Origin: a virus
Virus record (IMG/VR): IMGVR_UViG_3300024518_004839
Coordinates: 1 to 44,796 of that record
DNA length: 44,796 nt
Direction: 5' to 3' (one strand)
Shown here: positions 128-44,796 of the stretch, one piece after another
Position numbering within the stretch: the first letter of the stretch is position 1
Layout: each line of letters opens with the position of its first letter
Made by a program: the position numbers and the translations under genes
The notes under the pieces: generated by a model
Told to the model about the DNA's origin: nothing
Databases searched by the model: none
What the model saw: only the letters and a program-made list of their open reading frames with translations

Positions 128-334
128 GCGGATCTTGTGGAGGTTGTGTTCAGCCTGCTGTTCGCGCCACCATGCGCGGACCTCCGGGTCTATGGACATC
201 GTCCCCATTGAACGGTCTAGCTTCTCCAAGCAGAGGAGCAGGTACCGCGTCACCTTCTCGTTCTCGGCAATGAGCCCGAGCGTTTTGATGAGGGGGGTTT
301 CACTCTCCTGGTCACCGCTCATACCGTCGCTCAT
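29..334 (-). CDS. Unknown 101-residue helical protein, inverted diverged copy
   Basis: Paralogue or allele of the gene at 1961-2266, same length. The C-terminal ~55 residues are essentially identical, while the N-terminal half carries scattered conservative changes (SDGMSGDQES against TDGMSSDQDS, and I/L, F/Y, M/L exchanges). The protein is charged and predicted largely helical, with a Trp pair near the middle and a Lys/Asp C-terminus; no signal peptide, membrane segment or known motif is visible. The ATG at 334 overlaps the dockerin gene stop by four bases (ATGA), so the two genes are probably coupled; an ATG two codons upstream is also possible. In the other branch of the map this slot after the dockerin gene is taken by the unrelated gene 42543-42824. 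Function unknown. Confidence 0.7.
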   Translation of the reverse strand: MSDGMSGDQESETPLIKTLGLIAENEKVTRYLLLCLEKLDRSMGTMSIDPEVRAWWREQQAEHNLHKIRSRIMSSFSAIEKKALAPLMNENAKHLYKMHDK

Positions 335-1143
335 GGGCACACCGCCTCGTTGCAGTCGAGCCCCGTCTGGTCACCTCCACACTCAGCCGTTGGTTCCGGT
401 AGAGGCGTGCCCGACGCGAACAGGTAGTCAAGCACAGTCATTGTGTCCGTCAAAGTCAAATCGCCGGAGTCGTTCGCGTCGACCGCCGCTATGCACTCCG
501 GTGGTGCGCCGAGGAACATGACCTCAAGGGTGCGGACCGCATCGACGAGGTCGATCTCCCCGTTCTGGTTCGCATCCCCGCGCATGAATGGGAATTGGTT
601 CGAGATGTTGAGGTCGAGACCAATCGACGTGGTGGGGGCTTCGACGACCGAACCGTCCGGAAGCTGGAGGATGACGTCGTACCCCAAGGGAGGGCTCAGG
701 CCAGGAATCCCCTCGACCACCAAAGGAATCGCCGCTCCCGCCTGGGTCGGCTCCACGAAGAAGGTCGCCGTGAACACCTCGCCAGGGGCGTGAAGTATGG
801 TTGTCGGTGGGATCAACTCCGTGATGTACCCGACGAGCATCCCTTGGTCCCGTGGTGTCCAGTTGAAGAAGTCGGGTCCTGCGCCGGCGTTGGTCGCCAG
901 GAGTTCTCCGATCGGGAACGCGGAGATGGCTGTCATCGAGTTCGTATCGAAGAGGATGGGGATCGAGGCGCCGAGAACACCGTCCGCGTCCACGAAATCG
1001 ACCGAGACGTGGATCTTGCCGAGCCCCCCGGGGTGAGCGAACCCCTCCTGCGTGATCGAGACGGTAGAAGAGGGGGTCTGCGCCAGCGAGGCCGACAGCC
1101 ATGCTAGACACAAACCCCCAGCGACGAGCGAAAAAGGTCTCAT
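331..1143 (-). CDS. Secreted cohesin/dockerin-like protein, dockerin variant 1
   Basis: A 270-residue exported protein. Residues 1-22 form a signal peptide (Arg at 2, hydrophobic core, cleavage after an Ala-Ser-Leu-Ala type site). Residues ~25-170 are beta-rich and resemble cohesin-like domains. Residues ~188-245 hold a dockerin type I pair of calcium-binding loops (DANQNGEID and DANDSGDLT, each followed by a helix). A short Cys-rich tail (CGG...C...CP) ends the protein. I chose the ATG at 1143 because the signal peptide starts there and AAGGGGG lies just upstream; an ATG at 1182 would add 13 residues. The first 192 codons are identical to the copy at 42833-43645, the rest only ~60% by eye. 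Known relatives of this architecture are bacterial secreted proteins, often planctomycetal; its role in a phage is unknown (possibly an accessory gene altering the host surface, or a virion decoration). Confidence 0.75.
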   Translation of the reverse strand: MRPFSLVAGGLCLAWLSASLAQTPSSTVSITQEGFAHPGGLGKIHVSVDFVDADGVLGASIPILFDTNSMTAISAFPIGELLATNAGAGPDFFNWTPRDQGMLVGYITELIPPTTILHAPGEVFTATFFVEPTQAGAAIPLVVEGIPGLSPPLGYDVILQLPDGSVVEAPTTSIGLDLNISNQFPFMRGDANQNGEIDLVDAVRTLEVMFLGAPPECIAAVDANDSGDLTLTDTMTVLDYLFASGTPLPEPTAECGGDQTGLDCNEAVCP

Positions 1144-1352
1144 TTGGCCCCCTTGCGGTTGAGGGACACGGTACAGGAGCATCTCCCTACGGGACCCTGC
1201 TTTTTTAGATGGAACGACACCGTGGCAGAGCGTCGATTCTCTCCTGATGAGTGAGCTCCCCTTCCGGGGGAGGAGACAAGGAGGCGCTCCGCGCCGAGTT
1301 CTGCATGGCTGCGCCGCCTAAAACCCGTCGCTTCTTCAAGCAACTGCCGGTT

Positions 1353-1556
1353 TCAGGACAGCGCGCCGATCTGCATCGGCAGGGAGAGACCGCCACTTTC
1401 TCCGACGCGAATCAGGCGTTTACCGTTCGGCGTGAGCTCGAGAGGGTAATCCGCGGATTCCGTCCGCATGGCTTGCGTCGCCGAGGTTTTCTTGGGAAGA
1501 TTTCCTCGGCGTTCGTTTGCACCGAGGAGCGTACGCCGGCCCTGGTCGGGTGTCAA
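1353..1556 (-). CDS. Possible small protein, 67 residues (doubtful)
   Basis: An open frame with a TTG start and weak upstream AAGAG. An internal ATG at 1469 would give about 38 residues. The C-terminal half (ADYPLELTPNGKRLIRVGES) has protein-like composition, while the N-terminal half is rich in Arg/Lys/Thr and less convincing. It lies between two genes read in the same direction and repeats identically at 43855-44058. No family recognised. The frame crosses the hairpin at 1479-1511, and its start coincides with a candidate -35 box, which lowers confidence. Confidence 0.25.
   Translation of the reverse strand: MTPDQGRRTLLGANERRGNLPKKTSATQAMRTESADYPLELTPNGKRLIRVGESGGLSLPMQIGALS
1479..1511. 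other. Long perfect-arm inverted repeat (CGCCGAGG / CCTCGGCG)
   Basis: Eight-base arms CGCCGAGG (1479-1486) and CCTCGGCG (1504-1511) enclose 17 bases whose inner part (TTCTT facing AAGA) can partly extend the stem. There is no following T-run on either strand, so it is not a standard terminator. It could be an mRNA structure upstream of the dockerin gene or a protein site. The second copy lies at 43981-44013. Confidence 0.5.
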
Positions 1557-1601
1557 TGGCGCAATGCTCTTGACGGACTTCGGGCTTCGCTCCTCAACTT
1601 T

Positions 1602-1934
1602 TCACTCCTCCCCCATCAACATCGCGAGCATGTTCGGCGTCCGTGGAGACCACGGCTTTCGTGCAACGACAGGCTTGTCGATCCGTGTCGATCTCAGGTC
1701 GGGTAGCTTCCGGGTGAAGCCAACCGCCTGCCGCCACCATGTTCTATCGCTCTTCCCCCCCTCGGCGTCCTCGAGTACCCCAGCCACCATCACGCGGTAC
1801 GTCTTCACCATCGGGACGAGACGAGATGCAGCGGTATGCAACGGGACGGGACGAATGTTGTAGATCGCGACACCTGCACCGGTGACGTTCGGGCGGTTCG
1901 TTTCCCAGTTCCAGCGGATAAAATCTCCAGACAT
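1602..1934 (-). CDS. Unknown 110-residue protein, first gene of the minus-strand accessory unit
   Basis: ATG at 1934 with AAGGGGG seven bases upstream, a strong ribosome site. The protein has an aromatic N-terminus (FIRWNWET), a central beta-like stretch (VKTYRVMVAGVLED) and a basic C-terminal half ending in acidic GEE. No signal peptide, membrane segment or known motif is visible, and I do not recognise the family. The start lies only 26 bp from the divergent start of the gene at 1961, so promoters for at least one direction must lie inside the opposite gene. An identical copy is at 44104-44436. Confidence 0.6.
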   Translation of the reverse strand: MSGDFIRWNWETNRPNVTGAGVAIYNIRPVPLHTAASRLVPMVKTYRVMVAGVLEDAEGGKSDRTWWRQAVGFTRKLPDLRSTRIDKPVVARKPWSPRTPNMLAMLMGEE

Positions 1935-1960
1935 GAGCCCCCTTACAGAAACAAGGCCGG

Positions 1961-2266
1961 ATGACCGATGGCATGAGCAGTGACCAAGACAGCGAAACCC
2001 CCCTCATCAAAACGATCGGGCTGATCGAAGAGAACGAGAAAGTGACGCGATTTCTGTTACTCTGCCTGGAGAAGATGGATCGAGCGATGGGGACGATGTC
2101 CATAGACCCCGAGGTCCGCGCGTGGTGGCGCGAGCAGCAGGCTGAACACAACCTCCACAAGATCCGATCGCGCATCATGTCTTCCTTCTCCGCTATCGAG
2201 AAGAAGGCGCTCGCCCCGCTGATGAACGAGAACGCGAAGCACCTGTATAAAATGCACGACAAGTAG
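1961..2266 (+). CDS. Unknown 101-residue helical protein, plus-strand copy
   Basis: Starts at ATG 1961 with AAGG upstream; a second in-frame ATG lies at 1973. The sequence is charged and helical (SETPLIKT, LIEENEKVTRFLLLC, WWREQQAEHNLHKIRSR) with no membrane segment or metal motif. It could be a small regulatory or protein-binding protein, but nothing identifies it. It heads the plus-strand early region and is divergent from the 110-residue gene. Identical copy at 44463-44768; diverged inverted copy at 29-334. Retention of the same C-terminal half in all copies, with a changing N-terminal half, is the notable feature. Confidence 0.65.
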   Translation: MTDGMSSDQDSETPLIKTIGLIEENEKVTRFLLLCLEKMDRAMGTMSIDPEVRAWWREQQAEHNLHKIRSRIMSSFSAIEKKALAPLMNENAKHLYKMHDK

Positions 2267-2341
2267 CCGGGCACGGCGGTAGAACATTTCTGGTGCGCTG
2301 GAAATGGGAAAGAGACCCCTCAGTCTTTGTGCCGTGCCCGG
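2267..2341. repeat. 10-bp perfect inverted repeat flanking the spacer after the 101-residue gene
   Basis: CCGGGCACGG at 2267-2276 and its exact reverse complement CCGTGCCCGG at 2332-2341, separated by 55 bases. The left arm directly follows the stop codon; the right arm ends 22 bp before the next start. There is no T-run. It may fold in the message, bind a protein, or be chance in GC-rich DNA. The inverted contig-edge copy carries the left arm only. Confidence 0.5.
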
Positions 2342-8810: not shown

Positions 8811-9362
8811 ATGAGTGAGAAGCTGGAGCTACGACAGCTCGAGGGGGGCTTGACCAAGCGGCAGAAGGAGGTGGCTCGAGCCCTCGCGATCGAGCTCACC
8901 GCCAAAGCGATCCAGGAGGAGTCTGTGACCGACGTCGGCGCGCACTCCTACGAGGACATCTTCAAGCTCACGCAGACCGAGAGCTTCGTCAAGTGGCAGG
9001 AAGAGACCCTCAACACGCCGACCAAGCACGGGCACCCCGGGGAGAAGGTCGCGCACCTACTCGTGACCCTGAACCAAAGCGAGCTCGTGCTCGCCGCGGT
9101 GTCTGGCTACATCGATTTCATCCGCCGGCAACTCGATGTCGCCAGCGACAACGTCAAATATGTGATGAACGCCGTCTTCCAAGCGTACGACGGTGAGATC
9201 ACGGGGCTGAAAATCAAAGACAAGGAAGGCAAGGAATGGCAGGTATACACCGCATCCTCGACCCCCGATTCCGTAGTCCTGAGACGCAAGAAGGGGAAAC
9301 ACAAACGCCCGTCCAAGAAGTCTCGCACCACGTCCGCGTCGAGGAAACGCAGTACCCGCTGA
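8811..9362 (+). CDS. Unknown 183-residue protein with very basic tail
   Basis: ATG at 8811 with no strong ribosome site; translation may be coupled to the gene ending at 8804. Helical N-terminus (LTKRQKEVARALAIELTAKA), a central KHGHPGEKVAHLL segment, and a long Lys/Arg/Ser tail (LRRKKGKHKRPSKKSR) suited to nucleic-acid contact. The tail region is read in a second frame as the N-terminus of the ERF gene, with a 127-base overlap. No family recognised. Confidence 0.6.
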   Translation: MSEKLELRQLEGGLTKRQKEVARALAIELTAKAIQEESVTDVGAHSYEDIFKLTQTESFVKWQEETLNTPTKHGHPGEKVAHLLVTLNQSELVLAAVSGYIDFIRRQLDVASDNVKYVMNAVFQAYDGEITGLKIKDKEGKEWQVYTASSTPDSVVLRRKKGKHKRPSKKSRTTSASRKRSTR

Positions 9363-10078
9363 CGTCTCTTTCCTGCTCCAAGGTGTTCGCGGCACTCGCT
9401 GAAGCACAGATGGAGATCGGGAACGCGCACAAGGACAAGACGAACCCGCACTATAAGTCGAGCTATGCCGACCTCGCGTCAATCCGTGACGCGACACGCG
9501 AGCCGTTCGCGAAAAACGAACTCTGTCTGACTCAGCTCGTGTGCCCAATGGGCGGGCGCTCCATGCTGGTGACGATCCTCGGGCACTCAAGCGGGGAATG
9601 GCTGCGGTCGTACCTTCCGATCGAGCCGACCAAGCGCGACCCCCAAGGGGTGGGTTCCGCGATCACCTACGCCCGCCGGCAGTCGCACGCGGCAATCGCA
9701 GGGGTGGCACCCGACGACGACGACGGGAACGCCGCGAGCGCCAAGCCGACGAGAAGGGTGGCGCCCCCCAAGTCGAACGAGGATTTGATCCTTACCAAGT
9801 CTGAGAAAGCCTCGGTGAAGGACGTACGGCAGCCCGACACCCCCATCTCGATCGCCGAGAAGGGGCGGATCCTCAAATTCGTCGAAACCTTCTACCCGCA
9901 CGCGGCCGAAGCCTTCGTCGCGTACTGCTTCCGGGTAAAATACTTCCCAGACGCCCCGAAGAAGTCCTTCTCGTGGAAGAAGGTCACGCGGGGGATGGCA
10001 ACGGAACTTGAGATCGCTTTCAAGAGTCAGGGGACTCGTGACAAGGCAATCGCCGCGTACGAAAAGGCGGGCGAATAA
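9236..10078 (+). CDS. erf: ERF-family single-strand annealing recombinase
   Basis: A 280-residue protein. Residues ~47-165 match the ERF pattern: SKVFAALAEAQMEIGNAHKD, TNPHYKSSYADLASI, CLTQLVCPMGG and VGSAITYARRQSHAA. ERF proteins form rings that anneal complementary strands and, in phage P22, support circularisation and recombination of linear DNA. The C-terminal third is a Lys-rich domain of unknown type. The ATG at 9236 has AAGGCAAGGA upstream and lies 127 bases inside the previous gene; no start codon after the overlap would keep the domain intact. Confidence 0.85.
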   Translation: MAGIHRILDPRFRSPETQEGETQTPVQEVSHHVRVEETQYPLTSLSCSKVFAALAEAQMEIGNAHKDKTNPHYKSSYADLASIRDATREPFAKNELCLTQLVCPMGGRSMLVTILGHSSGEWLRSYLPIEPTKRDPQGVGSAITYARRQSHAAIAGVAPDDDDGNAASAKPTRRVAPPKSNEDLILTKSEKASVKDVRQPDTPISIAEKGRILKFVETFYPHAAEAFVAYCFRVKYFPDAPKKSFSWKKVTRGMATELEIAFKSQGTRDKAIAAYEKAGE

Positions 10079-10765: not shown

Positions 10766-11386
10766 ATGATCGCCGCTCTCTTCGTCCAGAAAAACGGAGC
10801 GTATTTCGACCTCCCCGACGTAGACCCCTGGGATGAGGAGAGGGACGCGCGGCTCTACAGTGGCCCGCATCCCGTCGTCGCACACCCTCCATGCTCGCGG
10901 TGGTGCCGGCTCGCTGGTCTTGTAGAAGCCCGGTGGGGGCACAAGAAAGGCGAGGACGATGGATGTTTCGAGTCCGCCCTAGATTCCGTCCATCGCTACG
11001 GCGGGGTTCTTGAGCATCCCGCCTATTCGGACGCCTTCCCTCGATACGGGATACCGAGCCCGGAAACTGGCATACAGGCTTGGCAGAGAACCATTGATGG
11101 CGGGTTTGTCACCTACGTTGAGCAGCACGCCTATGGGCACCTCGCCAAGAAAGCCACTTGGCTCTACGCCTTCGGGATGGACGACCCCCCGCCCTTACGA
11201 TGGACTTTCGTAGCCGATAACGACTCAACCGCCCTGGTTTCCTGGTGCGGGAATCATGTCAAGTCGGGAGAGGTTCGGCCGCGGGTCGGCAAGAAGGCGG
11301 CATCCGCTACGCCCGAGGCGTTCCGGTCAATCCTTATCGAGATCGCCCGCGCTGTACCTCAGACAGAGCCCGGAGAGCGGTCATAG
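10766..11386 (+). CDS. Conserved phage protein with PPC motif, function unproven
   Basis: At 206 residues this belongs, as I recall it, to a widespread uncharacterised phage protein type starting MIAALFV...GAYFDLPDVDPWDEERDAR. AHPPCSRWCRLAG (39-51) recalls the PPC motif of C5-cytosine methyltransferases, and GGVLEHPAYSDAF and AYGHLAKKATWLYAFG are further conserved-looking blocks. However, no SAM-binding FxGxG motif is visible, so methyltransferase activity is not shown; a base-modifying or nuclease role is possible. ATG at 10766 has GACGGAGAG upstream. It ends 53 bases inside the 3' end of the giant late gene, which runs towards it. Confidence 0.65.
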   Translation: MIAALFVQKNGAYFDLPDVDPWDEERDARLYSGPHPVVAHPPCSRWCRLAGLVEARWGHKKGEDDGCFESALDSVHRYGGVLEHPAYSDAFPRYGIPSPETGIQAWQRTIDGGFVTYVEQHAYGHLAKKATWLYAFGMDDPPPLRWTFVADNDSTALVSWCGNHVKSGEVRPRVGKKAASATPEAFRSILIEIARAVPQTEPGERS

Positions 11387-14300
11387 ATTCCGCTACCCTG
11401 CCCTCGTCTTCATCGTTTCTCTCGGTAGTACCAAGTAGGCGGCGAGCCTTGACCGCATCCCCCTGAGCAATGGCGCGCTCGATCGCCTCCCTGTTGCGAC
11501 CCGCCCGGGTGATGAGTTGGTTGTACCGCCGGTCGAGATCGATCGACGTCAGGCGGAGACCCGTCACGAAGGGGACCAACCGCTCCCACGCGGTGCGCTC
11601 GTCGAGCCCCATCTCCTTCCCGAACGACTCCGACGCGGTGCGGTAGAGGCGCCCAAGTTGCGTCTGGTTCAGAAGGTGATAGCGATAGCCGTTCACCCTG
11701 TACATCGTCTCGTCGCCGACCTGTACCTGGCGCAGTTGCAAGAACTCTCGAACCACCGGCACGTCGAGGATGATCTTGCGGACGTCCGAGTCTTCCACGA
11801 TGTCGCGGTTGAAGAAGAAGTCTTTCCCCGCCGCGAGCTCGAAGGGGAGTTTCGCCAGCGGGTTCAAGCGACCGATGAGCTCCTTCATGGTGCCCTCGCG
11901 GAAGCCACCGGTGCGCCACCGGGTCAAATCCCCGATGAAGGACAGATCCTCCGCCGCGATCAGGTTCGCCCCACGCCAGACCTGCATCTTCCCGTTCTTG
12001 ATCTGCGGGAAGAACTGCCACCCCTCACGCACGAAGCCGGGGATCAGCTCCTCGATCGGGCTCTCGTCGTCGCGGAGAAGTTGCTGCGTCTTGCCGAGCC
12101 CAGAGATCAGGCCCGGTCGCTGGTACATCGTCTCGAGCATCAGAGGGATGTTGAAGCGAGCGAAGGTATAGAACGGGAACATCCGCCGCATCGCCTGCCG
12201 CTCGAACGGGGTCAGCGCGTGCGCGTAATCGAACATGTATTTCTGTGCGAAGCGCATCGCCTCGGGCGCCGCCATCCCCCGCTCCATCCCCTCGATGAAG
12301 ATGTTCAGACGGAAGTAGTTGTCGGCCTTGCCCCCAAGGTTGTTCGCGACCTCTTTCGCGGCGTTGACGCCACGGAGCGCGAAGTTCGCATTCCACGGGG
12401 AGAGCCGCGGGTCGGTGACCCCTGCGACGTTGATCTGGGTAAGCCCGATCTTCTCTCCGAAGTCGACGATCCCCCCGTGACGTTTGAATACATCGAGGAG
12501 GAACTTCCGTTCGTGCTCGACACCGTTGATGAGCATAGTGCCATCGGCACCCTTCATCAGTTGAACGATGTCCCAGTTGCGCGAGACGTTCATCCCCTTG
12601 AGCCCGATCGCCATCATCATGCGGACCGCACCGTCGAGCACGTTCCGCAAGTGAAAGGCGGGCCAGGGCGCGGTCTGCAACCACTTGAAACTATTCGTGA
12701 ACCAGTCGAAGGGCTTGAGCATCGCCTTCGCCGGCCCGACGATGACATTGTCCTGGACGATGAGATCGTTGATGAGACGACCCGCCCACGCCGGCACGAA
12801 GAACTCTTTCTCGAGCGGCACCCCGTCCGGACTCACGGCCCCCTCGAACTTGTGGAATCGGACCCGCACGAGCTCATCCTTGGTGCCCGCCACCTTCTCG
12901 AGCGCCTTCTCTGCCCCCTCGATCCCCTGGTCGGCGTGTAGCGGGAGGTGTCCACGAGCGAACGCCCCGAGCGCGAGCTCCGGCGGGGTAAGTTGCTTCT
13001 GGACCCCCGAGCCGAACGCCCGAACGTCGGGATACGCCTTCTGCCCGAGGTACTCCATCACCTGGGCCGCTTCGATCGCATTCAGTTGGTCGAGGCGAGA
13101 GCGACCTGTCAGCGCGAAGATTAGGGATCCCTGTTCGACCGGGTCCTTCGTGATCCCGCGGAGTTGCTCGGTGATCCCTTTGACCTGGCTCTCGAGCGCC
13201 GGCGCCCCGAGGAGATTCTTCGATAGAACCTCGGCGGAGTTGAGGTGGCCGACGATCTCCTGCACAGCATCGTTCAATTCGATCTGTTCGAGGGTCGTAC
13301 CGAGGCTGGGGTGGGAGAGAACAGTCCCCTCGGGTATGACGAAGAGAATCTCCCCCCCTTCTGGAGAAATCCGCTCTATCCCTACCACGCCTGCGTCTGA
13401 GAGGATTTCGAGGGCACGCTGGTCAGTGCCGGCGCCCGCGAGGTCGACCCCGAGCCGGGCGTTTACCTGGCGCGCGCTGGTCGAGAGGATCCGAGACCAC
13501 TCTTCGCCGGTGCCCTCCCACTGGATGACGCCCATCTTCTCGGCCAGGGATGCCGCATTATCGTCGAAGACCCGCCCGCCGCCGATCTCCCCCCCGACGA
13601 GCTTGGCCCGCTGGAGCGCCTCGATGTCCTCGATCGCGCCGCCCCGCACGAGCTCCGCCCGCGCCCGGAGGAACCGGACCTCTGAGGCCGAGGGGAGAGA
13701 GGCGAGGATCTGGACCAAACCGTCATGCTCTGCGGCCAAGACCTGCATCTTGTAGTAGTTGTGCATCTGGGCCATCGAGTGCCAGCGTTCGGTCTCGCCG
13801 GGGCCGAAGCCGAGATTGAGAGCCTTCTTCCGGCGGAGATCGGGGAGCACCAGATTATTGAAGAGCTCAAGCTCCTTCCGCGCGAACGCCCGCGTCTCGA
13901 TGAGGTCGGTGTGCTGCTGGATCAGATCGACGGTTTGCCCCTGGACCGCGGTAGTCCGCGACGCTCGCAACTTCGAGAACGCCTCGGAGCCGGAATACCT
14001 CCCAAGGGACTCCGCCAGATCCACCGACGAGCCCGCCGCGAGCCCCACGTTGCCGGTTAGCCCTGGCCGCTTACCGCGCACTCCGAGGCGCCAAATCCAG
14101 TATTGGCCCCGAGCCTTGCCAGGGCGGAAGACATCGAGGAATGCCTCATATGACTCTATTTCCTGCGGACTGAGCTCGCCGCGGCTGAAACGCTGTAGAA
14201 GGTCGCCATTCGCCGATCCGGCCACGCCCTCTAAAATCTCGTTCGGGTCCCCGAGCTGCACGCCGAGCTTCTCGTACTCCGATTGCACCGTCTCCTCGAG

Positions 14301-17300
14301 GCGGGAGAGGAATCGCTGCATGTCGCGGGAGAGCCCGCCCTCGCGAAGGCGACCGACCGCGAGCTCGACTTGGTCCGCGAGCTCATCGAGCCCGAACCCG
14401 GGGGGAAGCGGCTCCCCGCGCAAGCTCGCCTCGACCATCTGCGCCGCCGCGCGAGCCGCCTGCTCCTGCTGGGCTGCTACATCTGACAGGCTAGTCGCGA
14501 CTGGTCCTAACGCCCCGGATTCGAGAATCGACTGCTGGAGCTCCTTCGTGACGTCCCCGAAGTTGGTCTGAAGGCCGAGCCGCTCGAGCCGCGCGAGCCG
14601 CTCCCGGGCGGTGAGCTGGAACGCTTCGAGCCAAGCAGCCTCTTCGACGACGCGCTGCGTGACCGCCTGGACGTCCGCCGCCGGCAAGAGGGCTTCCGCC
14701 CCCAGTGCCTCAATGAAGGTACGAGGGTCGCGCCCCGAGGCCAGATCCGCCGCCTTTGCGGCAACGTCGGACATGAAAACCTCATCGAGGGCAATCTCCC
14801 GGGCCAGAAGTGGGAATTCCTCCATGACGTCGATCGCGGCTTGCTGGATGGCCGCCTGGTCTGGCGGCTCAATCCCGAAGTTGAGCTGACGGAGGGCGCG
14901 GTGGGACGCGACGTCCCCCGAGTCCAGGGGCGAAGAACTCATCGCCCGGCGGACCTCCTGGAGCACCTCTTCTGCGTCATCGGGGCGCACCCCCTTGAGG
15001 TGCTTCTCCCACGGGCCACGGAGAGCCTTGTTTGTGGGGCCGCTTGCCCACACCTTCTCGACCGCTTGCGCCCAGTCGAGCTCATTCACCCCGCCGAGGC
15101 GGAGGAACTCGTCCGTTGCGGCCACCTGGAGCCAGTCCGCGAGCACGTCCCGTTGAGACTCGGCGGTCCACTCCGGTTGAGGGCCAAGCCGCGCCGCGTA
15201 GCGATCGGCGATCCCGCCGGTGTTGTCGCTCATTCGGTCGAGGATCCGAACCTGCTCTTGGAGCGCCTCGATCGGGGCTTGGATCTGGGTCATCTCTTGG
15301 TCGAGGAGCTTGATCGCGTCCTCGGCGGTCTTCGCCTGAGCGGTGCCGAGCTCAAGTTTCCGCTTCACGAACGCCGCTTCGACCTCCTTCGGCATCTTGT
15401 TCAGGTCGCCCCGGAGGTCATCCCATAGCTTGAGGAAGGACCCGACGATCGGGTCGTCCTTCAACCACTCAAGAGCGAGCTCGCGGCCGGCGCCAGATTC
15501 GGGGAGCGGCTTGAGGAGCTTCTCGACCCTCGCCTCGACCGAGGCGGAGAGGGCGCGGACGCTGTCGGTAAGCTCTTCGATCCCCTCGAGGACCCCCGCG
15601 ATCTGCTCCGGGGTCGCTTCCGTGATCGCCTTCACCGAACCGGTGACCGTCAGCATCTCCCGGGTGAGTGCCTTCGAGTCGCGGAAGAGCTCCGCGATCT
15701 TCTGGTTCGACGCGATGATCTCGTCGGAGAAGTCGCGGGAGAGCCCCGCCATGATCTCGTTCGCTTCTGGGTCCTGGAGTAGCTCCCTGATCCCGTCATC
15801 GAATTCGTTGACCGCGTCCTGCAAAAGCTCGTGGGCTTCGGTCGTGTCCACCTCGGAGTAGCCGCGCCGGGCGCGCGAAGTGTCGACCGCGGCCTGGAAG
15901 TCGCTCACCAACGCCCGGAAATCCTCTGGCCTACGCCCTGAGACCTCCGCCGCGCGCGCCGCGACACTCTTTACCCTGGCCGTCATCGCTCGGATGATGC
16001 CCTCTTCGGCATCGCGAATTACCGAGGGGCTGTCCATGACTGACCGGGTCAGGGAGTCACCGATGAGCTTCTCGCTCCGCATTTTCTTGATGACCTTGGC
16101 GGGGTCTGCCGCGGTGGCTGCGTCCTTGAACGCCGAGTAGAAGCCAGAAGCCCGCCCGCCGTAGCTCGTCTGCACCAGACCATTGACGCCCTCGAGCACG
16201 TTCCAGTTCGCCCCCGAGCGGAATGCCGCCGGCGTGTTGATGATGTCCATGAGGGTCCCGAAGAGCGCGTTGTCGTCTTTCGCGAACGCGCGGACCGACT
16301 TTGCCACCCGAGAAGAGACCGACTTCCGAAGCTCGGCGGACTTGGCGCCGCCGCTCGCGACGTAAGGGCTCTCCGAGAAGAACTTCAAGCCGAGCTCTGC
16401 CCCAGTCTCCTGCTTCTTCGCGATGAACTCGAAGAGCTCGCCGCGCGCCTCCCGAGTGAACTTACCGAACGGGATGACCGGGAGACCGCGGCTGCGACGG
16501 TAGTCCTCCGCCTGCTTCGCGAGCCATCCGGTGCGTCCGTAATCGCTCGAGATCACATCGAGAACGGCCCGGGCTTCGTCACCCTTCCCCGCCGTCTTGA
16601 GACTGGTGTATTCCTTGAGCTTCCGAATGAATGCCGAGTTGCCGATGTCTGCGGAGAGTAACCGTCCGCCCTTGGTGATCGTATCTTCGATCATCTGAAC
16701 CGGGAGGAAGCGCGCGAACATCGTCGCCATCTCGAAGTCGAAGCCGTCCCACCGAGATGTCACGCTCTGAACAAGTTCGTTCCCCTGGCGGTTCTTCATC
16801 ATCGCGAAGAGCTCTTGCGCCCACTCCTCGACCAAGCCGTCGACCTCATCGCCGAGCTGGAGACCCTTGGTCCCTACGTCCTCGAGCACCGATTCAAGGA
16901 TGACCATCCGCGCCGCGGACTCGCCACCCTGGTCTGCCGCCTTGAAGAACTGCGGCCCCACCTTGGAGGGGAGCACGAGGCCCCGAGCGGTGCCAGCCTC
17001 GCCGGCCCGACCGAAGAGCTCCGACACCCGAGCGACCAACCGCGAGGAGAGCTCCGACGCGAACTCGAGATCACCCTCGGGGGACTTACCAACGAATTGT
17101 TTGATCTTCTGAATGAGCCCGTCCGGTGTGTCCACCCCGAGCTTCTCCCGTGCCCGCTCAACGATGGCGGTGTACTCGTCGGCGACCTGATTCATCATCT
17201 CGTGGATCGTCGCACGCCCCGCGTCGATGTCCTGAATGATCGCAGCGTCGAGAGAGTCCTCCCCGTGGATGAGAGCGATGTTCAGAACATCGGGGTTCTG

Positions 17301-19673
17301 CTCAAGCCAGTCGGTCGCGGACTCCCACTCCCCACGCTGCACGCGCCCGAGAAGCTCCTCGAACTGAGGGAGGTTCTTCAAGAGGACTTGCGAGCGCCAG
17401 ACCTCGGGGCCGAGCGTCTTCCGCTCAATCGACCGGAGGATGTCCGTACCGAACTTGCCGCGCGGACCGTACTCCGCCTCGAGGAGCTTATGCACCTGGC
17501 GCGGGTGAACCGCGAAGCCGTCCTGAAGACGGGAGACGAACAGTCGTTCGATCCGCGCGCGCTCCGCAGTAAGCCTCCGGTTGTAGATCAGCCCGAAGAC
17601 GTTCTTCACCGGCTTGAGACCGAAGCCCCCTTGGTCGCGGGGACGGGTCGCTTCCGACCGCGTCATGTTCCGTGAACGGATGAACGGGTCATCGTCAGAG
17701 AAGCGCGCGAACTTGCCCTGACGCAACGAGACATTCAGGGTCTTTTCGTAGCCCTCGAATTGAGATGGGAGGTAGTAGTCGAGGAATGCGACATCGAGTC
17801 CCTCTTCTGCCAAGAGGTCCCACTCGCGGTTGAAAAGCTCCTGCGTGTTGCGGGCCATCTCGACGATCTGCTCCCTGGTCTCGACTGCCAAGTGGTCGAG
17901 CCTCGCATCGCCAAGAATGATGCTTCCGAGCTTTGTTTCCTGATAGCTCTCTCCTGCCTTGTCAGAGAAGAACTTCTTTCCGCCACGCCGCCAAAGGGTC
18001 GCCGCATCCTCCTCTGCCGTCATCGCGTCGAAGAGAACGTCTTGCTCGACCTCCGTTAGCGCACGGCCAGTCTTCGAGCCGTCCTTGATGGTGAGGATCT
18101 TCTTGGTCTCCTCAAGGATGGTGGTCGCCTCGCGCGCCATCGCTACTGCGCGATCCTTGAACATCTCCCGAAGCCACGGGCTCCGCCCCAGGGTTGCCCC
18201 GAAGGCGTGCTTCACCATCTCCGCGCCGTTACTCACCGCTTCGAAGACGAACGCGACTTTGTTCTGTAGAAATTTCGTGATCGCCTGAATCGGAGCGGGG
18301 GAGTCATTGACCAAGAATCGCCAAGAGTCTGACGCCGCTTCCATCATCTTGAACTTGGTAGCGTCCATCCACTGCGCGCGGATCCCGAACTCTGGGCCGA
18401 AGGGAACCTTCAGCTTCAGCCCCCCTTGGTCGAGCATCTTCTGCACGGTCGCCTTGAGCGGGATGTCTCCCGTGCGCGCCGCTTCCCGCGGGCCGGAGAT
18501 GTACTTCTTCAGGTTGTCGAACGTGTAATCGATCCCGTCCCGACCCATGAGGTCTTCGAAGACCGTGCGGGCGATGTGTGGGTCAACGCCGAACGTCGCG
18601 AGGGCGGTATCGATGTCCCCGTCCGCGCGCCGAAGAGCCGAGTCCCAAGTGTCGTGCCCCCGCTCACGGATGAGACGGTCGAAGGTCACCTCGACGTCTT
18701 TGCGCATCGCCCCCTGGATCGCGAACTTCTGCTGCGCCTCGAGAAGCTCGTCGGGGGTCTCTTTGAGTAGGGCGTCAGAGATCCCGGTGTCCGCCTTCTT
18801 CCGCTCGAACAGATCAGCAAGCGCACGCACCCGGTCGCGGGCGTTCGTCGGGAGGTCTTTTACTTCGTCGAGACCTAACCTTGCCGCCGCTGTCGCCTCG
18901 TCTGACAGCTTGGTCGCAATCTCATCCAGTACCCTCAACGGGGTTTGTCGAGTCCCCCCAGCGAAGGCAACTTTCCCGACCTTGAGCGTTGCGCTACCGG
19001 CTGCACGGCCCGCCGCTCGAGCGGCGACCGCGCCAGTGCCGAGCGTCAGATACGTCGTCGGGTCGAAGATGACGTCGGCCGCGAAGCCGAGCACCTCGCG
19101 CGACCACTTGCCGACCCCGTCTTGAGAGTCCCACCCCATATTGTCGAAGACGTCGGAGAAGGTCTGCTTGTCCTGCAAGGTGAAGCCACGCCACGCCTCA
19201 AGGAACGGGTTCGTTTCTTCGGTCTCCCCCTGGATGAGGTTCACCGTGGCATCGACCGCGCCGGCAATGGCGTAGTTGAACACCTGGAAAAGCTCAAGGA
19301 GCCGAAGGAAGCCCGACGACTCGGTCTCGTCGCGGGGGACGAACACAGAATCGTTGTCGCCGCGCCGCACCCGGTTCCGCCCGACTCGCTGGAACTGCGC
19401 ACGCTCTTCGTCGGTAAGGTTCGCCTGCCCTTGGAACGCTGTCCCGCGCAACGGGACCGGCGACCCTTGATAGCTCGCGCGTTGGAGCTCGGTCACCATC
19501 GTCGCCTGCGCCAGCTTCGGAGTGATGAGCCCGGCATTCTGGAGAGCGATCAGGGATTGGACGTAGGGGCGTGCCTGCCTCTGCGGCAACGGGCGAAGCC
19601 GTGTCGGGAGAGCCTGCGCGCCAGCCGCCGCACCATCTTGAGCGAGGTAATACTCGTCGAGCCCGGCGGCCAT
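11334..19673 (-). CDS. Giant virion protein, 2779 residues, probable ejection protein
   Basis: Last late gene, starting just after the stop of 19674-21329. By gene order (hub, then four internal-type proteins) it matches the position of P22 gp16 or T7 gp16, large proteins carried in the capsid and ejected with DNA. The N-terminus has hydrophobic stretches (NYAIAGAVDATVNLIQG, VLGFAADVIFDPTTYLTLG); the middle is long, helical and Glu/Ala-rich. The last ~450 residues form a well-ordered block (NSFKWLQTAPWPAFHLRNVL, RMFPFYTFARFNIPLMLETM) that may meet the membrane. I see no clear lysozyme or polymerase motif, although an unrecognised enzymatic domain is possible in so large a chain. It might instead be a tape measure, but the P22-like order argues against that. 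Confidence 0.7.
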   Translation of the reverse strand: MAAGLDEYYLAQDGAAAGAQALPTRLRPLPQRQARPYVQSLIALQNAGLITPKLAQATMVTELQRASYQGSPVPLRGTAFQGQANLTDEERAQFQRVGRNRVRRGDNDSVFVPRDETESSGFLRLLELFQVFNYAIAGAVDATVNLIQGETEETNPFLEAWRGFTLQDKQTFSDVFDNMGWDSQDGVGKWSREVLGFAADVIFDPTTYLTLGTGAVAARAAGRAAGSATLKVGKVAFAGGTRQTPLRVLDEIATKLSDEATAAARLGLDEVKDLPTNARDRVRALADLFERKKADTGISDALLKETPDELLEAQQKFAIQGAMRKDVEVTFDRLIRERGHDTWDSALRRADGDIDTALATFGVDPHIARTVFEDLMGRDGIDYTFDNLKKYISGPREAARTGDIPLKATVQKMLDQGGLKLKVPFGPEFGIRAQWMDATKFKMMEAASDSWRFLVNDSPAPIQAITKFLQNKVAFVFEAVSNGAEMVKHAFGATLGRSPWLREMFKDRAVAMAREATTILEETKKILTIKDGSKTGRALTEVEQDVLFDAMTAEEDAATLWRRGGKKFFSDKAGESYQETKLGSIILGDARLDHLAVETREQIVEMARNTQELFNREWDLLAEEGLDVAFLDYYLPSQFEGYEKTLNVSLRQGKFARFSDDDPFIRSRNMTRSEATRPRDQGGFGLKPVKNVFGLIYNRRLTAERARIERLFVSRLQDGFAVHPRQVHKLLEAEYGPRGKFGTDILRSIERKTLGPEVWRSQVLLKNLPQFEELLGRVQRGEWESATDWLEQNPDVLNIALIHGEDSLDAAIIQDIDAGRATIHEMMNQVADEYTAIVERAREKLGVDTPDGLIQKIKQFVGKSPEGDLEFASELSSRLVARVSELFGRAGEAGTARGLVLPSKVGPQFFKAADQGGESAARMVILESVLEDVGTKGLQLGDEVDGLVEEWAQELFAMMKNRQGNELVQSVTSRWDGFDFEMATMFARFLPVQMIEDTITKGGRLLSADIGNSAFIRKLKEYTSLKTAGKGDEARAVLDVISSDYGRTGWLAKQAEDYRRSRGLPVIPFGKFTREARGELFEFIAKKQETGAELGLKFFSESPYVASGGAKSAELRKSVSSRVAKSVRAFAKDDNALFGTLMDIINTPAAFRSGANWNVLEGVNGLVQTSYGGRASGFYSAFKDAATAADPAKVIKKMRSEKLIGDSLTRSVMDSPSVIRDAEEGIIRAMTARVKSVAARAAEVSGRRPEDFRALVSDFQAAVDTSRARRGYSEVDTTEAHELLQDAVNEFDDGIRELLQDPEANEIMAGLSRDFSDEIIASNQKIAELFRDSKALTREMLTVTGSVKAITEATPEQIAGVLEGIEELTDSVRALSASVEARVEKLLKPLPESGAGRELALEWLKDDPIVGSFLKLWDDLRGDLNKMPKEVEAAFVKRKLELGTAQAKTAEDAIKLLDQEMTQIQAPIEALQEQVRILDRMSDNTGGIADRYAARLGPQPEWTAESQRDVLADWLQVAATDEFLRLGGVNELDWAQAVEKVWASGPTNKALRGPWEKHLKGVRPDDAEEVLQEVRRAMSSSPLDSGDVASHRALRQLNFGIEPPDQAAIQQAAIDVMEEFPLLAREIALDEVFMSDVAAKAADLASGRDPRTFIEALGAEALLPAADVQAVTQRVVEEAAWLEAFQLTARERLARLERLGLQTNFGDVTKELQQSILESGALGPVATSLSDVAAQQEQAARAAAQMVEASLRGEPLPPGFGLDELADQVELAVGRLREGGLSRDMQRFLSRLEETVQSEYEKLGVQLGDPNEILEGVAGSANGDLLQRFSRGELSPQEIESYEAFLDVFRPGKARGQYWIWRLGVRGKRPGLTGNVGLAAGSSVDLAESLGRYSGSEAFSKLRASRTTAVQGQTVDLIQQHTDLIETRAFARKELELFNNLVLPDLRRKKALNLGFGPGETERWHSMAQMHNYYKMQVLAAEHDGLVQILASLPSASEVRFLRARAELVRGGAIEDIEALQRAKLVGGEIGGGRVFDDNAASLAEKMGVIQWEGTGEEWSRILSTSARQVNARLGVDLAGAGTDQRALEILSDAGVVGIERISPEGGEILFVIPEGTVLSHPSLGTTLEQIELNDAVQEIVGHLNSAEVLSKNLLGAPALESQVKGITEQLRGITKDPVEQGSLIFALTGRSRLDQLNAIEAAQVMEYLGQKAYPDVRAFGSGVQKQLTPPELALGAFARGHLPLHADQGIEGAEKALEKVAGTKDELVRVRFHKFEGAVSPDGVPLEKEFFVPAWAGRLINDLIVQDNVIVGPAKAMLKPFDWFTNSFKWLQTAPWPAFHLRNVLDGAVRMMMAIGLKGMNVSRNWDIVQLMKGADGTMLINGVEHERKFLLDVFKRHGGIVDFGEKIGLTQINVAGVTDPRLSPWNANFALRGVNAAKEVANNLGGKADNYFRLNIFIEGMERGMAAPEAMRFAQKYMFDYAHALTPFERQAMRRMFPFYTFARFNIPLMLETMYQRPGLISGLGKTQQLLRDDESPIEELIPGFVREGWQFFPQIKNGKMQVWRGANLIAAEDLSFIGDLTRWRTGGFREGTMKELIGRLNPLAKLPFELAAGKDFFFNRDIVEDSDVRKIILDVPVVREFLQLRQVQVGDETMYRVNGYRYHLLNQTQLGRLYRTASESFGKEMGLDERTAWERLVPFVTGLRLTSIDLDRRYNQLITRAGRNREAIERAIAQGDAVKARRLLGTTERNDEDEGRVAESMTALRALSEVQRGRSR

Positions 19674-22636: not shown

Positions 22637-23253
22637 TAGATCACCTGCCAAACGAACTTGTCGGATGTGTGTAGGTCCGTGTTCACTGCGTATTCAACCA
22701 TCGTAGTGAACGCCTGAGTGCCACCGTCTCCGTACTCGACCCGCAGACCCGTGAAGAACCCGCCCGACGTGATCGTCGAATCGACACGAAGCGGAGGACG
22801 GTCCGTGCTTTGGTTGTCCTGCATCGAAAGTAGCGCGTTCATCTCGCAAGTGTCTGGTCGCGTGGCCTTCACCAAAGAGATGTTCACGAAGGCGACGCCG
22901 TTCGCCAAGGAAACTTCCCCCAGTTCCCACGGGTGGCGCACCTCAACGTCGATGAAGACCGACGAAGCGGTCCACTTCGCGAGCGAGAGCGCGGGTACTG
23001 TCCACTTCAGATCGAGAGTCTTCTGGATCAGGATCAGCCCCGAGGGGACGGTGCCAAGCGTATGCTCAAGCTCGAGCTCTCCGGAGAAGCCGATCGAGAC
23101 CGGCGACCAATTGACGAACCGGGAGGGAACGATCGCTCTTTCGTCGAGCCGCGCCCGGAGCCTCTCTGCCATCTTCTGGGTGGTCGGGACCCCGGCGCTG
23201 ATCTCGGGACGCTGCGTCAGGTCCCTGAAGCCTCCGCGGGTGCCTTCGGTCAT
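22636..23253 (-). CDS. Tail-associated structural protein, 205 residues
   Basis: ATG at 23253 (ATGA overlap with the hub gene, GGAGG upstream) replaces a longer frame that would lie inside the hub gene. The N-terminus is helical (TQKMAERLRARLDERA), followed by an all-beta body (FVNWSPVSIGFSGELELEH, ASSVFIDVEVRHP). Such a helix-then-beta layout suits a tail knob, needle or short-fibre attachment protein. No specific family recognised. Confidence 0.55.
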   Translation of the reverse strand: MTEGTRGGFRDLTQRPEISAGVPTTQKMAERLRARLDERAIVPSRFVNWSPVSIGFSGELELEHTLGTVPSGLILIQKTLDLKWTVPALSLAKWTASSVFIDVEVRHPWELGEVSLANGVAFVNISLVKATRPDTCEMNALLSMQDNQSTDRPPLRVDSTITSGGFFTGLRVEYGDGGTQAFTTMVEYAVNTDLHTSDKFVWQVI

Positions 23254-26200
23254 CTGGTCCTCCGGGGACCACGGGTCCGGTACCGGAGGATGGCTCGCTG
23301 GATGTCCAGCTCCTTCGACCGGTCGGTCCCCGAGAGGATTTCGTATTGCGAACGACGTCCGCGCTTGCGGTAGCTGAACCCGTAATCGGGATGCTGCCCC
23401 GTCGATGCGTGCTCTGTCGCGTCGTGCGCCGCTACCGCCGTCGAGGATTGGTCGACGAACATCCGGAACACCGCGTCGAGGTCCGCTTGCAGAACGTCCT
23501 GGTCGTTGACGAACGTCATCCCACTGAAGACGTAATCGAAGCCCTCGCCCTGTGGTGAGTACCACTGGGATAGGTACCGCCGGCGCTGCGAGCCCACCAT
23601 GACCAACGCGCGATCGTGGGCGATACCGGACGTCGTGAAGTGGTCGAACCACAGCTCATAGGGAGAGACGTGCGTGACCTTCCGAATCGTCGTCAAGAGG
23701 ACGTCAGAGTCGGAATGGAAGAGCGGGTGATCGACCGGGTCGCCAGCGAACGCCCCGCTGTAAGTCGCCTCCGTGTAGAAGACGATCAAGGCCGGCATCC
23801 CCACAATGTCGACGTGCCAATCCTGAGTCGTCGACTTCATCCCATAGGTGAGAAGGTTCCCGCCGGTGGTGATGAACTCCGTCGCGCGCGCGTAATCGTG
23901 TTCGAAGTCTGACGCCGCGCTATCTGAGTCGTACGCCTCGCGCCCCGTTCCCTGCTTGTAGATCCAGGAGGGTCCCCCGATGAGTGAATGCTCGCCGCGG
24001 ATCCCTGTCCCCTCGTGGCCCGTCGAGATCGAGTCGTGCGCAAACTCGTACTTCGACCAACGACCGAGCTCGTAGGAGAACGTGTAGATCGTGTCCCGTT
24101 GGGTCAGCGCGACCGCGTTCGGGATCGACATCCAGATCTGCTTCTTCCGCGCATTGTGCGAGAGCTGAATCCCCTGGAGTTGCGCCACAGTCAGCGCGTC
24201 CATCGTCTGGCGGATCGACTGGGAGCTCACGTCCTGGATCTCGACTCCGTCCGTCGCGTAAACGGCGCGATCTGGGGAGACGAAAAATGCGCGGTTGTCC
24301 GCGAGCGTTGACGCACGGGAGCCGATACAACCCCGCCCCTGGTGGACTACCACCGGCTGCTCTCCGGTTTCCGTGGCATCGTCTCTGACCGCCCAGATCG
24401 AGCGTTCCTTCAAGATCAGTAGGCGACCGAAGAGTGCCACCAAGGCTACGACCTTATCGGAGTCGTCATCGTTCAACTGCCAGAGGTTCGTTGGCGGGAA
24501 GCTCTCATGCAAAAGCGGCTTCGAGTAGTAGACCCAACCCGGGTGGAGACCCGCGCCGCCGACGACCAACGTCCGCCCCGCGATCGTCGCGGTAGTGAAC
24601 TCTTCCGGCGGGTGGTTATCGATGACCTCGAGCGGCTGCAAGACGAGATCAGACTCCGCCAGACCCGAAGTGAACGTGACTGTCGGCCCCTCGGGAGGCA
24701 CGAGTTTCGGCTTCGGGAGTTGCTGCTCGAGGTACCAAAGGTCCCCGGTCTGCGCCTCCCGGTAGATGTTGATTGTGTCGTAATCTTCGCCATTGATCGT
24801 CAGGAAGAACGAGAGATCGATGTCGAGCGTGTCGTGTCCCCCGCCGGTCGTTCCCGCCGTCGCAAGCGGCATCGCGGAAAGGTTCGACTCTTGCCCGGTG
24901 AGCGAGTTGTAGGTGCTCAACCGGTAGCTATAGGCGGTCGCCGCGACAAGCCCGCCGGCCCCTGCCGAGGAAACCGCATTGTCCAGGGTGATGAACGGGA
25001 CCCCGTAGCCGACCCTGGCGATCCCCATCGGGAACACCTTGAGCGGTCCCATCCCCTCGCCGAAGAGCACCGTTCGATCCTTCGTGTCGATCCCGCCAAC
25101 CCCCGCGGTCGGGCGACCGAGCATCCTGGAACCCACCGGCCAATGACCAGCACCAGCATCGACGTCGTACCGCCAGACCCCACCGTCCTTGACGACGTCG
25201 AGCGTCTGTTGGGTCCGATCGCCGATCGTTCGCGCCCCCGCATGGATTCCGTAGGTCGCCGATCGCTCTCCGCCGATCATGTGCGGAATACCGCTCCAGC
25301 GGCTCTCCCCGCGCCACGGAGACGTGCGGAGGGTGTGAACCCCTGTCTTGTTGTCGCGGACCTGGAGGAGCCTCTCTCGCCCGTCATCCATCGTCTCTGT
25401 CGTCAGCGAGCTCGCCACCGCGGGATCGAAGCTCAGAACCAACGACGCCGGCCACGTCAGTTGGCCATCGGGGGGGTAGGTGTCGAGCGCGATGATCGCC
25501 GCAGAGTTCGCGGGCCGCCCCCCCTGGATGTTCCCGTGGATGCGAACGTCGGTCAGATCGAAGCGGACGGTTTCGGCCTCCGGGGCCAGGGTCCCGACGA
25601 CAACCTGGTCGAGGGCCATCGGTCTCCCGGTGAGGTTTGAAGTTCCCGAGCTCGTCCAGACTCCCGCAGTATCGACCCACGGCTCGAGAAGGGTTGTTCC
25701 TGCCGCAAAGTCGGTCTCGACGAAGAAGGCGAATCGGTAGTCGGTATCGAACGCCAGATCCGCCGAAACCCGCGAAACACGGGTGATCCCGCCGCCAGGA
25801 GCGATGATTCGGCAGTACGCGAACATCCGGAATCCCGAGACCGAGGGCGCAGCAACGGTGATCGCCCAATCCTCTTGCGGAGCCTCGGCGGTACCCGACG
25901 CGATGATGTTCCCGGCGGTCACGAAGGCGTCATCGCCAGGTGGCGGAGCCTTCACGTTTACGCCACAGATAACCCCCCAAGCCTCCGTTTCGTCGACCCG
26001 AACGGTTGTCGCGTTCACGGTCGCGCCCGAGTTCGGGGACACGAGAAGCTCTCCGCCGACTACCGTCACCGGTGGAGGATTCAGGAGAAACGCTCCCGCT
26101 CCGCTGCTCGTGTATGCCGACTTACCGAGGGCCGCCACTTCGTACCCGAGACCCTCCGGTTGCATCACCAAGAGGACGTCGTCATACGCCGAGACAAGGT

Positions 26201-27044
26201 CGAAGCGTTGCGGGATCATCTCCCACCGGTGGACCGTGAAATCGTCACCGGTGTCGACCTCAAAGATGATGACCTGGCCAATCGTCCCGATGAACGGGTA
26301 TCGCCAATCATCCTGATTCGCGAGCGCGACCGCACCGACCGCGAGGAAGTGCGTCCCCGAGGGGGAGACTTCAAGGTCAAGGATCGCTGAAGTCGTCTGG
26401 CGGGAGGTCGAGTTCGACCCATTCATGTAGTAGCGGAGGATCTGGTTGGTGTGGTCCGAATTCATGTTCCACTCGATGCAGAACACGTCATCGATGCTGT
26501 TCCAGTCCTCGTCTACCCCCTCCTGCACGATCGATTGGTCAGCGAAGACCGCGCCCGTCGCTCCGTCGACCGATCGCCAATGGAAGGTGAAGCGGAAATT
26601 GTCCTGCGTGTTGTGCTCGAGGAACATCGCCCAGCCGCCCGTTTGCCCACTGGCTGCCCCGAAGTCTGTCGAGTCACCGGTCGAGCTCGCAATGCACCAG
26701 CGGGAACCGGTCGCCCATTCCGCCAGCCGCTCGAGGTCGAGGTGCGTGACGTACGCGCGGACCACGACGCCGGTCACCGTCGCAAGCCCCGCATCGGTTG
26801 CGGTGTCGAGCGCGAGCGCGTCAGAGGACCAGTCGCTTTGCGTGCAAGAGTCGTCCTCGTAAGAGATCGCCTTGTGGGGGAGGATCTCCTCGATCGCACG
26901 AACCATTGGCGCGCGCCCGCGCACGGAGCGGTATGTGAAATCGACGTTCTTCACGTCCTCGGCAGACCAACGCGGGGACGCCGCACCCTTGCGGGTATCG
27001 AAGAGCCCTTGGAATTCGGTCTGCTCGCGCTCCTGGTATCCCAT
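23250..27044 (-). CDS. Tail hub / stabilisation-type protein with N-terminal LamG-like domain
   Basis: At 1264 residues it begins at ATG 27044 (TAATG overlap); a TTG six codons upstream is less likely. Residues ~75-285 look like a concanavalin/LamG sandwich (WAMFLEHNTQDNFRFTFHWR, GTIGQVIIFEV). The region around 790-1000 matches beta-propeller tail hubs of the P22 gp10 kind: AGRTLVVGGAG, VYYSKPLLHESFPP, FGRLLILKERSIWAVRDD, GCIGSRASTLADNRAFFVSP, RAVYATDGVEIQDVS. Such hubs close the portal channel and anchor fibres. At ~470 residues gp10 is far smaller, so the sugar-binding-type insert and further beta domains are additions, perhaps for receptor binding. Confidence 0.65.
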   Translation of the reverse strand: MGYQEREQTEFQGLFDTRKGAASPRWSAEDVKNVDFTYRSVRGRAPMVRAIEEILPHKAISYEDDSCTQSDWSSDALALDTATDAGLATVTGVVVRAYVTHLDLERLAEWATGSRWCIASSTGDSTDFGAASGQTGGWAMFLEHNTQDNFRFTFHWRSVDGATGAVFADQSIVQEGVDEDWNSIDDVFCIEWNMNSDHTNQILRYYMNGSNSTSRQTTSAILDLEVSPSGTHFLAVGAVALANQDDWRYPFIGTIGQVIIFEVDTGDDFTVHRWEMIPQRFDLVSAYDDVLLVMQPEGLGYEVAALGKSAYTSSGAGAFLLNPPPVTVVGGELLVSPNSGATVNATTVRVDETEAWGVICGVNVKAPPPGDDAFVTAGNIIASGTAEAPQEDWAITVAAPSVSGFRMFAYCRIIAPGGGITRVSRVSADLAFDTDYRFAFFVETDFAAGTTLLEPWVDTAGVWTSSGTSNLTGRPMALDQVVVGTLAPEAETVRFDLTDVRIHGNIQGGRPANSAAIIALDTYPPDGQLTWPASLVLSFDPAVASSLTTETMDDGRERLLQVRDNKTGVHTLRTSPWRGESRWSGIPHMIGGERSATYGIHAGARTIGDRTQQTLDVVKDGGVWRYDVDAGAGHWPVGSRMLGRPTAGVGGIDTKDRTVLFGEGMGPLKVFPMGIARVGYGVPFITLDNAVSSAGAGGLVAATAYSYRLSTYNSLTGQESNLSAMPLATAGTTGGGHDTLDIDLSFFLTINGEDYDTINIYREAQTGDLWYLEQQLPKPKLVPPEGPTVTFTSGLAESDLVLQPLEVIDNHPPEEFTTATIAGRTLVVGGAGLHPGWVYYSKPLLHESFPPTNLWQLNDDDSDKVVALVALFGRLLILKERSIWAVRDDATETGEQPVVVHQGRGCIGSRASTLADNRAFFVSPDRAVYATDGVEIQDVSSQSIRQTMDALTVAQLQGIQLSHNARKKQIWMSIPNAVALTQRDTIYTFSYELGRWSKYEFAHDSISTGHEGTGIRGEHSLIGGPSWIYKQGTGREAYDSDSAASDFEHDYARATEFITTGGNLLTYGMKSTTQDWHVDIVGMPALIVFYTEATYSGAFAGDPVDHPLFHSDSDVLLTTIRKVTHVSPYELWFDHFTTSGIAHDRALVMVGSQRRRYLSQWYSPQGEGFDYVFSGMTFVNDQDVLQADLDAVFRMFVDQSSTAVAAHDATEHASTGQHPDYGFSYRKRGRRSQYEILSGTDRSKELDIQRAILRYRTRGPRRTR

Positions 27045-39304: not shown

Positions 39305-39516
39305 CAGGATCTCCGTTCAGAGATGTTCGAACCGTGGCGCGCACCCCGACGTTTCGACTGCTCGACCTCGCGAATTGCCATCCGCACTGAGTTCTCGAAC
39401 AGTCCCCCTTGCGAGTAGATCATCGTAGCGACGTCGGCCACGTTTTGGAGGTCCGCCTCGTTCACCCCGAGTTCGGCGGCTCTCATCCGTACCTTGGTCG
39501 CTGTCGTGTCTTTCAT
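39304..39516 (-). CDS. Unknown 70-residue helical protein
   Basis: ATG at 39516 by ATGA overlap with the large terminase stop. Two helices (KVRMRAAELGVNEADLQNVA, LFENSVRMAIREVEQSKRR) and a basic tail. Helix-turn-helix-like size but no certain motif. May assist packaging; inferred from its place only. Confidence 0.5.
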   Translation of the reverse strand: MKDTTATKVRMRAAELGVNEADLQNVADVATMIYSQGGLFENSVRMAIREVEQSKRRGARHGSNISERRS

Positions 39517-44436: not shown

Positions 44437-44462
44437 GAGCCCCCTTACAGAAACAAGGCCGG

Positions 44463-44768: not shown

Positions 44769-44796
44769 CCGGGCACGGCGGTAGAACATTTCTGGT

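Follow-up and report, generated by a model that had tools for sequence, protein, structure and literature searches.

Introduction

Type I dockerins (Pfam: PF00404), as in clostridial cellulosomes, are modules with two calcium loops and F-helices, whose specificity is determined by positions 10, 11, 17, 18 and 22 of either repeat (PMC5748583). Outside cellulosomes, cohesin- and dockerin-containing proteins of freshwater Planctomycetes have been proposed to build a hypothetical 'planctosome' (PMC6461901). Dockerins in phages as such are already known, and BFVD holds viral proteins named 'Dockerin type 1'; our search of the open-access literature found no report of phage cohesin-dockerin proteins, and Planctomycete-type cohesin-dockerin cargo and its mosaic spread in phages appear undescribed in that literature.

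Here we analyse a viral contig of 44,796 nucleotides (IMG/VR record IMGVR_UViG_3300024518_004839, positions 1 to 44,796), in the following called the window, which carries two forms of a small gene for a signal peptide, a cohesin-like core and a C-terminal dockerin. We consider it probable that the window combines DNA from two different phages, referred to as phage 1 and phage 2. The features that enter the argument are:

1-127, no strand: 127-mer, putative assembly branch node; reverse complement of 2168-2294 and of 44670-44796 (contig-end rule in PMC10914622)
29-334, minus strand: gene X', homologous to X and identical to it at the 3' end; overlap (ATGA) with the stop codon of the dockerin-B gene
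331-567, minus strand: dockerin B, encoded by the last 78 codons of the gene and attributed to phage 2
568-1062, minus strand: shared cohesin-like core, residues ~28-192; same in both window copies, with 937-1062 also the same in the second contig, G001
1063-1143, minus strand: region encoding the phage 1 signal peptide; in G001 the same core follows another signal peptide
1144-1960, no strand: divergent intergenic region of phage 1, between the cohesin-dockerin gene and X
1961-2266, plus strand: gene X (101 residues), which opens the early operon on this strand
9236-10078, plus strand: ERF single-strand annealing protein, which may have mediated the mosaic recombination
28239-28336, minus strand: 98-bp segment within the DUF2341 tail gene (27044-28645) that recurs unchanged at the right end of G001
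39513-41042, minus strand: terminase large subunit of phage 1 (phrog_38; phrog_2 in G001)
42833-43069, minus strand: dockerin A, C-terminal 78 codons, phage 1; contiguous within the 42,502-bp circle
43070-44796, no strand: second copy of 568-2294, an exact 1,727-bp identity where the contig overruns its own circle

Results

Two gene copies and the ends of the contig

The genes at 331-1143 and 42833-43645 both lie on the minus strand, both encode 270 residues, and are exactly alike over codons 1-192, with codon 193 the earliest to differ. Beyond this point identity falls to 63% between the DNA of 331-567 and its counterpart left of the second copy, and the C-terminal 86 residues of the two proteins are 64% identical. 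At the break, dS rises from 0 to ~1.6, far beyond chance, and it is at this level, with synonymous sites near saturation, that the last 78 codons show a dN/dS of 0.22. The first-pass annotation had described 192 identical codons, a diverged stretch of 78 codons and a break at 568/43070, all of which exact comparison bears out; its reading of the gene product as an export signal, a cohesin-like part and a dockerin is likewise backed by the profile and structure matches described below.

The identity is not confined to the gene. Window 568-2294 equals 43070-44796 with zero mismatches (1,727 bp, offset 42,502), and thereby extends 1.15 kb beyond gene 331-1143, through 817 bp of intergenic DNA and then gene X, whose 101-residue product gave no convincing match in a family search. 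The contig consists of a 42,502-bp circle (568-43069) and 567 additional bases at its left end and is most simply explained as a circle that the assembler overran, with the 567 bases as an extra left arm. Reverse-complemented, its first 127 bases match exactly both 2168-2294 and its right end (44670-44796). By the published rule for contig ends, one reverse-complement 127-mer at both ends is expected for a branch at k=127 (PMC10914622); since the two ends here are the same 127-mer in reverse complement, both look like one de Bruijn branch node with k = 127. The 567-bp arm contains the alternative dockerin end (331-567) and gene X', which is ~15-25% diverged from X in its 5' part and identical to it over the last 127 bp. 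By itself, this arm links the minus to the plus orientation of the genome, and it fits no closed path without the second contig described below.

Two further genes of the window stand out by their size or composition. A 712-residue protein of the structural region, with no clear family (32512-34650, minus strand), contains tandem 114-bp (38-residue) repeats at 33430-33999, and a 2,779-residue protein without a convincing family match closes the late operon (11334-19673).

A second phage contig sharing part of the core

The only IMG/VR relative of the shared N-terminal part is found on IMGVR_UViG_3300024518_002449 (G001, 28,753 bp), which probably comes from the same assembly or sample as the window. 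At its left end, 126 bp repeat window 937-1062, a part of the core, without change and lead into a different signal peptide; at its right end, 98 bp are identical to the reverse complement of 28239-28336, in the DUF2341 tail gene. Besides these two ends, the contigs have no other 20-mer in common, and their terminase and major head protein families differ (phrog_2 and phrog_1328 in G001, phrog_38 and phrog_9953 in the window phage). The overlaps of 126 and 98 bp correspond to k-1 of 127 and 99, rather than exactly to k. Searches of IMG/VR with X, the dockerin pair and a 1,270-residue structural protein (23250-27062) returned no relatives, a terminase relative (L010) carries no cohesin-dockerin gene of the window type, and the phage and plasmid record collections, in each of which one form was searched, gave no match to the 270-residue proteins.

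With G001, the arm finds a place in a closed path of 55.6 kb, which runs from G001 through window 28238 to 2168 in reverse, X', dockerin B and the core, and back into G001. Both gene joins tested along it stay in frame (263 and 534 residues), the orientations fit and, judged from ORF positions, the early and late operons each keep one direction. G001 has its own member of the structural family phrog_578/3287, which also occurs in the window backbone, and this makes it doubtful that the whole 26-kb backbone is shared. On these topological grounds, G001 most likely represents phage 2, and with it the source of the 567-bp arm. The gene assembled at 331-1143 is then most likely an assembly chimera, in which the dockerin of phage 2 and the signal peptide of phage 1 surround a core that belongs to both, and the real alleles are likely signal peptide 1, core and dockerin A in phage 1, and signal peptide 2, core and dockerin B in phage 2. 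If these alleles are as proposed, the identical DNA measures 495 bp and has diverged sequence on both sides, with limits at the signal-peptide and dockerin boundaries.

Two other observations concern the relationship of these genomes. The DUF2341 tail gene is itself mosaic (window 27044-28645, L009:13944-14353), with a diverged 5' part (~53-66% protein identity) followed by the 98 bp identical between the phages. An 82-residue gene of the window (41622-41870) has a homolog of 62% identity directly upstream of the G001 cohesin gene (L008:183-434), the order being reversed in the window phage.

Dockerin, cohesin-like core and their Planctomycete homologs

A profile of the C-terminal module matches dockerins with an E-value of 1.5e-6, and the top 27 PDB matches of a dockerin A model (mean pLDDT 78.7) are all dockerins (TMt 0.35-0.84), with both helices present in the model (15-27 and 47-59). 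As judged from profile and model, the C-terminal module truly has the dockerin fold, and it belongs with the dockerins at the ends of ~150 Planctomycete proteins. In both A and B, repeat 1 has Asp/Asn at all five calcium-loop positions considered (1, 3, 5, 9 and 12), while repeat 2 has Asp/Asn at positions 1, 3 and 12, Ser at 5 and Ser/Thr at 9. Dockerin B scores 15.9-18.4 bits against PF00404 and does not reach its curated cut-off (22.9 bits), PF00404 found no match in the full-length protein with dockerin A at an E-value of 0.1, and a search of NCBIfam gave none; in a wider dockerin alignment, 11 of the 14 members match PF00404 at E-values of 0.01 or lower. For the core, a profile was built from 8 sequences, Planctomycete homologs among them, and all of its matches in the PDB, weak as they are (best E-value 0.0017), are cohesin complex or scaffoldin entries, by which the shared core is classed as cohesin-like. 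An AF2 model of the whole protein was discarded (pLDDT 33).

The nearest bacterial dockerin module comes from Planctomycetes bacterium UBA4800, in whose genome we found 149 matches. Within the fetched loci, mostly from UBA4800, 41 of 42 dockerin copies sit at the extreme C-terminus, within 14 residues of the end of the ORF. The module therefore has the marks of a host-type C-terminal tag, with many copies per genome at the very end of proteins, and the phage module likewise ends its protein. In Planctomycete proteins, too, this dockerin occurs together with several core-like domains, and the phage protein looks like a reduced host-type protein. From its host-type dockerin tag and cohesin-dockerin design we infer a Planctomycete host, perhaps for both phages.

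Proteins with the Planctomycete-type dockerin tag are encoded on 3 further IMG/VR contigs. On one of these, G397, a terminase is present, and on G395 a 304-residue protein of the same cohesin-dockerin design adjoins a subtilase with cohesin and dockerin. L049 (IMGVR_UViG_3300023278_002223), from a contig that is classed as viral and in which no PF03237 terminase was found, carries a cluster of probably secreted proteins, namely a dockerin lipoprotein, a subtilase-cohesin-dockerin protein, a cohesin-dockerin protein and a cohesin lipoprotein. The contig of L051 (IMGVR_UViG_3300022218_000001) has a terminase and encodes, side by side, two small and probably secreted proteins, which bear a dockerin of Planctomycete type. 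The fetched stretches of 19 ERF relatives contain neither cohesin nor dockerin.

Alternative origins of the two forms

The contig can also be taken at its word. It joins signal peptide 1, core and dockerin B exactly as written, and the 1,727-bp identity takes in the intergenic region and the X of phage 1 itself, as would be expected if the population of phage 1 truly varied, some genomes having acquired dockerin B by recombination at the RGDAN codons. Such a genome would contain X as well as X', and only an inverted head-to-head structure would allow it to close; moreover, the contig stops on either side at a k-mer branch node and the arm has a complete alternative home in G001, and we regard such variation as unlikely. 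A literal reading of the sequence further allows for both forms in one genome, as two cohesin-dockerin genes ~42.5 kb apart on a real 1.7-kb direct repeat, but the two stretches of 1,727 bp do not differ at a single base, the 42,502-bp circle closes seamlessly and the contig breaks off on either side exactly at one common 127-mer, all of which makes this very improbable. Least probable of all, to a degree that we would be most surprised to see it confirmed, is a programmed inversion or cassette switching of C-terminal modules as in the invertible segments of phage tail-fibre genes: a constant N-terminus with alternative C-termini is what such a system would produce, and X and X' flank the unit as inverted repeats, but the junction sequence has no further copy in either orientation, neither the window nor G001 holds a further dockerin cassette, and no invertase was seen among the genes scanned, which cover part of the ORFs. 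The paired recombination sites and invertase that characterise tail-fibre cassettes are thus not found, there being no second junction and no such recombinase in the scanned genes.

Whatever their origin, the two C-termini differ at 31 of 86 residues, which may suggest an adaptive diversification of cohesin-binding specificity; the first-pass annotation had suggested diversification of a binding specificity for the case of population variation. The difference between A and B is under purifying selection (dN/dS 0.22 at a dS of 1.6), the canonical cohesin-contact positions (10, 11, 17, 18 and 22 per repeat, in a mapping made in this analysis) are the same at 8 of 10 sites, and the differences fall where host copies vary too (p = 0.0003). 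Together, these observations argue against a changed specificity, to which we assign a very low probability, and the proposal is not supported for a module that is a general C-terminal tag, with its 149 copies in one Planctomycete genome. Of the module swapping suggested at the same time, a modular break at a domain boundary is supported, as is a core shared, over the 126 bp visible, with the otherwise different contig G001; that the window shows the same gene of one phage in two forms is not supported. The chimeric assembly join that had been named as one possible refutation is in part what we find: the junction bears the marks of an assembler join of two phages, while both C-termini are probably real.

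Discussion

Under the favoured two-phage origin, two tailed phages in one sample would possess mosaic versions of one small secreted gene, with a cohesin-like middle domain identical at the DNA level and a signal peptide and C-terminal dockerin from different lineages. The 567 bases with dockerin B and X' would stem from phage 2, and the assembler would have attached them to the left end of the phage 1 circle because the two phages do not differ in the core or at the end of gene X over a length of its k or more. Domain-level mosaicism between the phages is supported, and its simplest cause would be a recent homologous recombination through which the core came to be shared, plausibly helped by the ERF-type annealing protein; phage 1 also encodes a Gp157/Gam-like protein and a RusA-like resolvase.

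The protein itself would be exported and may act as a miniature adaptor scaffoldin, its dockerin docking it into cohesin-dockerin complexes of the host envelope and its own cohesin perhaps binding dockerin-tagged host proteins. This adaptor function, in which the dockerin docks and the cohesin captures, is suggested by the design of the protein, and we put it forward tentatively. More speculative still, and on balance rather unlikely as a whole, is the general picture in which Planctomycetota phages carry a host-like mini-scaffoldin of one cohesin and one dockerin and trade its cohesin domain as a cassette between unrelated phages, where it is combined with differing modules for export and docking, so as to enter or block host cohesin-dockerin surface complexes.

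Two consequences follow for work on such sequences. The contig is corrected to one in which two phages are apparently joined, and identical domains of co-occurring phages can create false 'module swaps'. Phage-borne cohesin-dockerin proteins match a C-terminal tag on ~150 proteins of one Planctomycete and, if they act in host surface complexes, would provide a straightforward way to probe what the hypothetical 'planctosome' does.

Among known systems, the type I dockerins of clostridial cellulosomes resemble the phage module in their two calcium loops and F-helices, and solved dockerins match it by profile and fold. The phage module differs from them in a cysteine-containing tail that ends in C-x4-CP and in the absence of Ser-Thr at positions 10/11, and a single copy falls below the Pfam cut-off. 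The 'Dockerin type 1' protein A0A8S5M688 (Myoviridae sp. ctCL221) is likewise a dockerin fold in a phage protein, but its likeness is limited to a weak structural match to the phage dockerin (E-value 0.03, 28% identity). As in ERF/Red-like phage mosaicism, identical blocks lie beside strongly diverged flanks and an ERF is encoded in the window genome; in contrast to classical mosaicism, the blocks here match domain boundaries inside a secreted cargo gene. The Planctomycete cohesin/dockerin proteins of the hypothetical, non-cellulosomal 'planctosome' (PMC6461901) share with the phage protein the combination of a signal peptide, cohesin-like domain(s) and a dockerin in one chain, and those at L042, L043, L044 and L048 carry several cohesin-like domains with the same terminal dockerin; compared with these proteins of ~500-2000 residues, the phage-borne form has one cohesin-like unit and a length of 263-270 residues.
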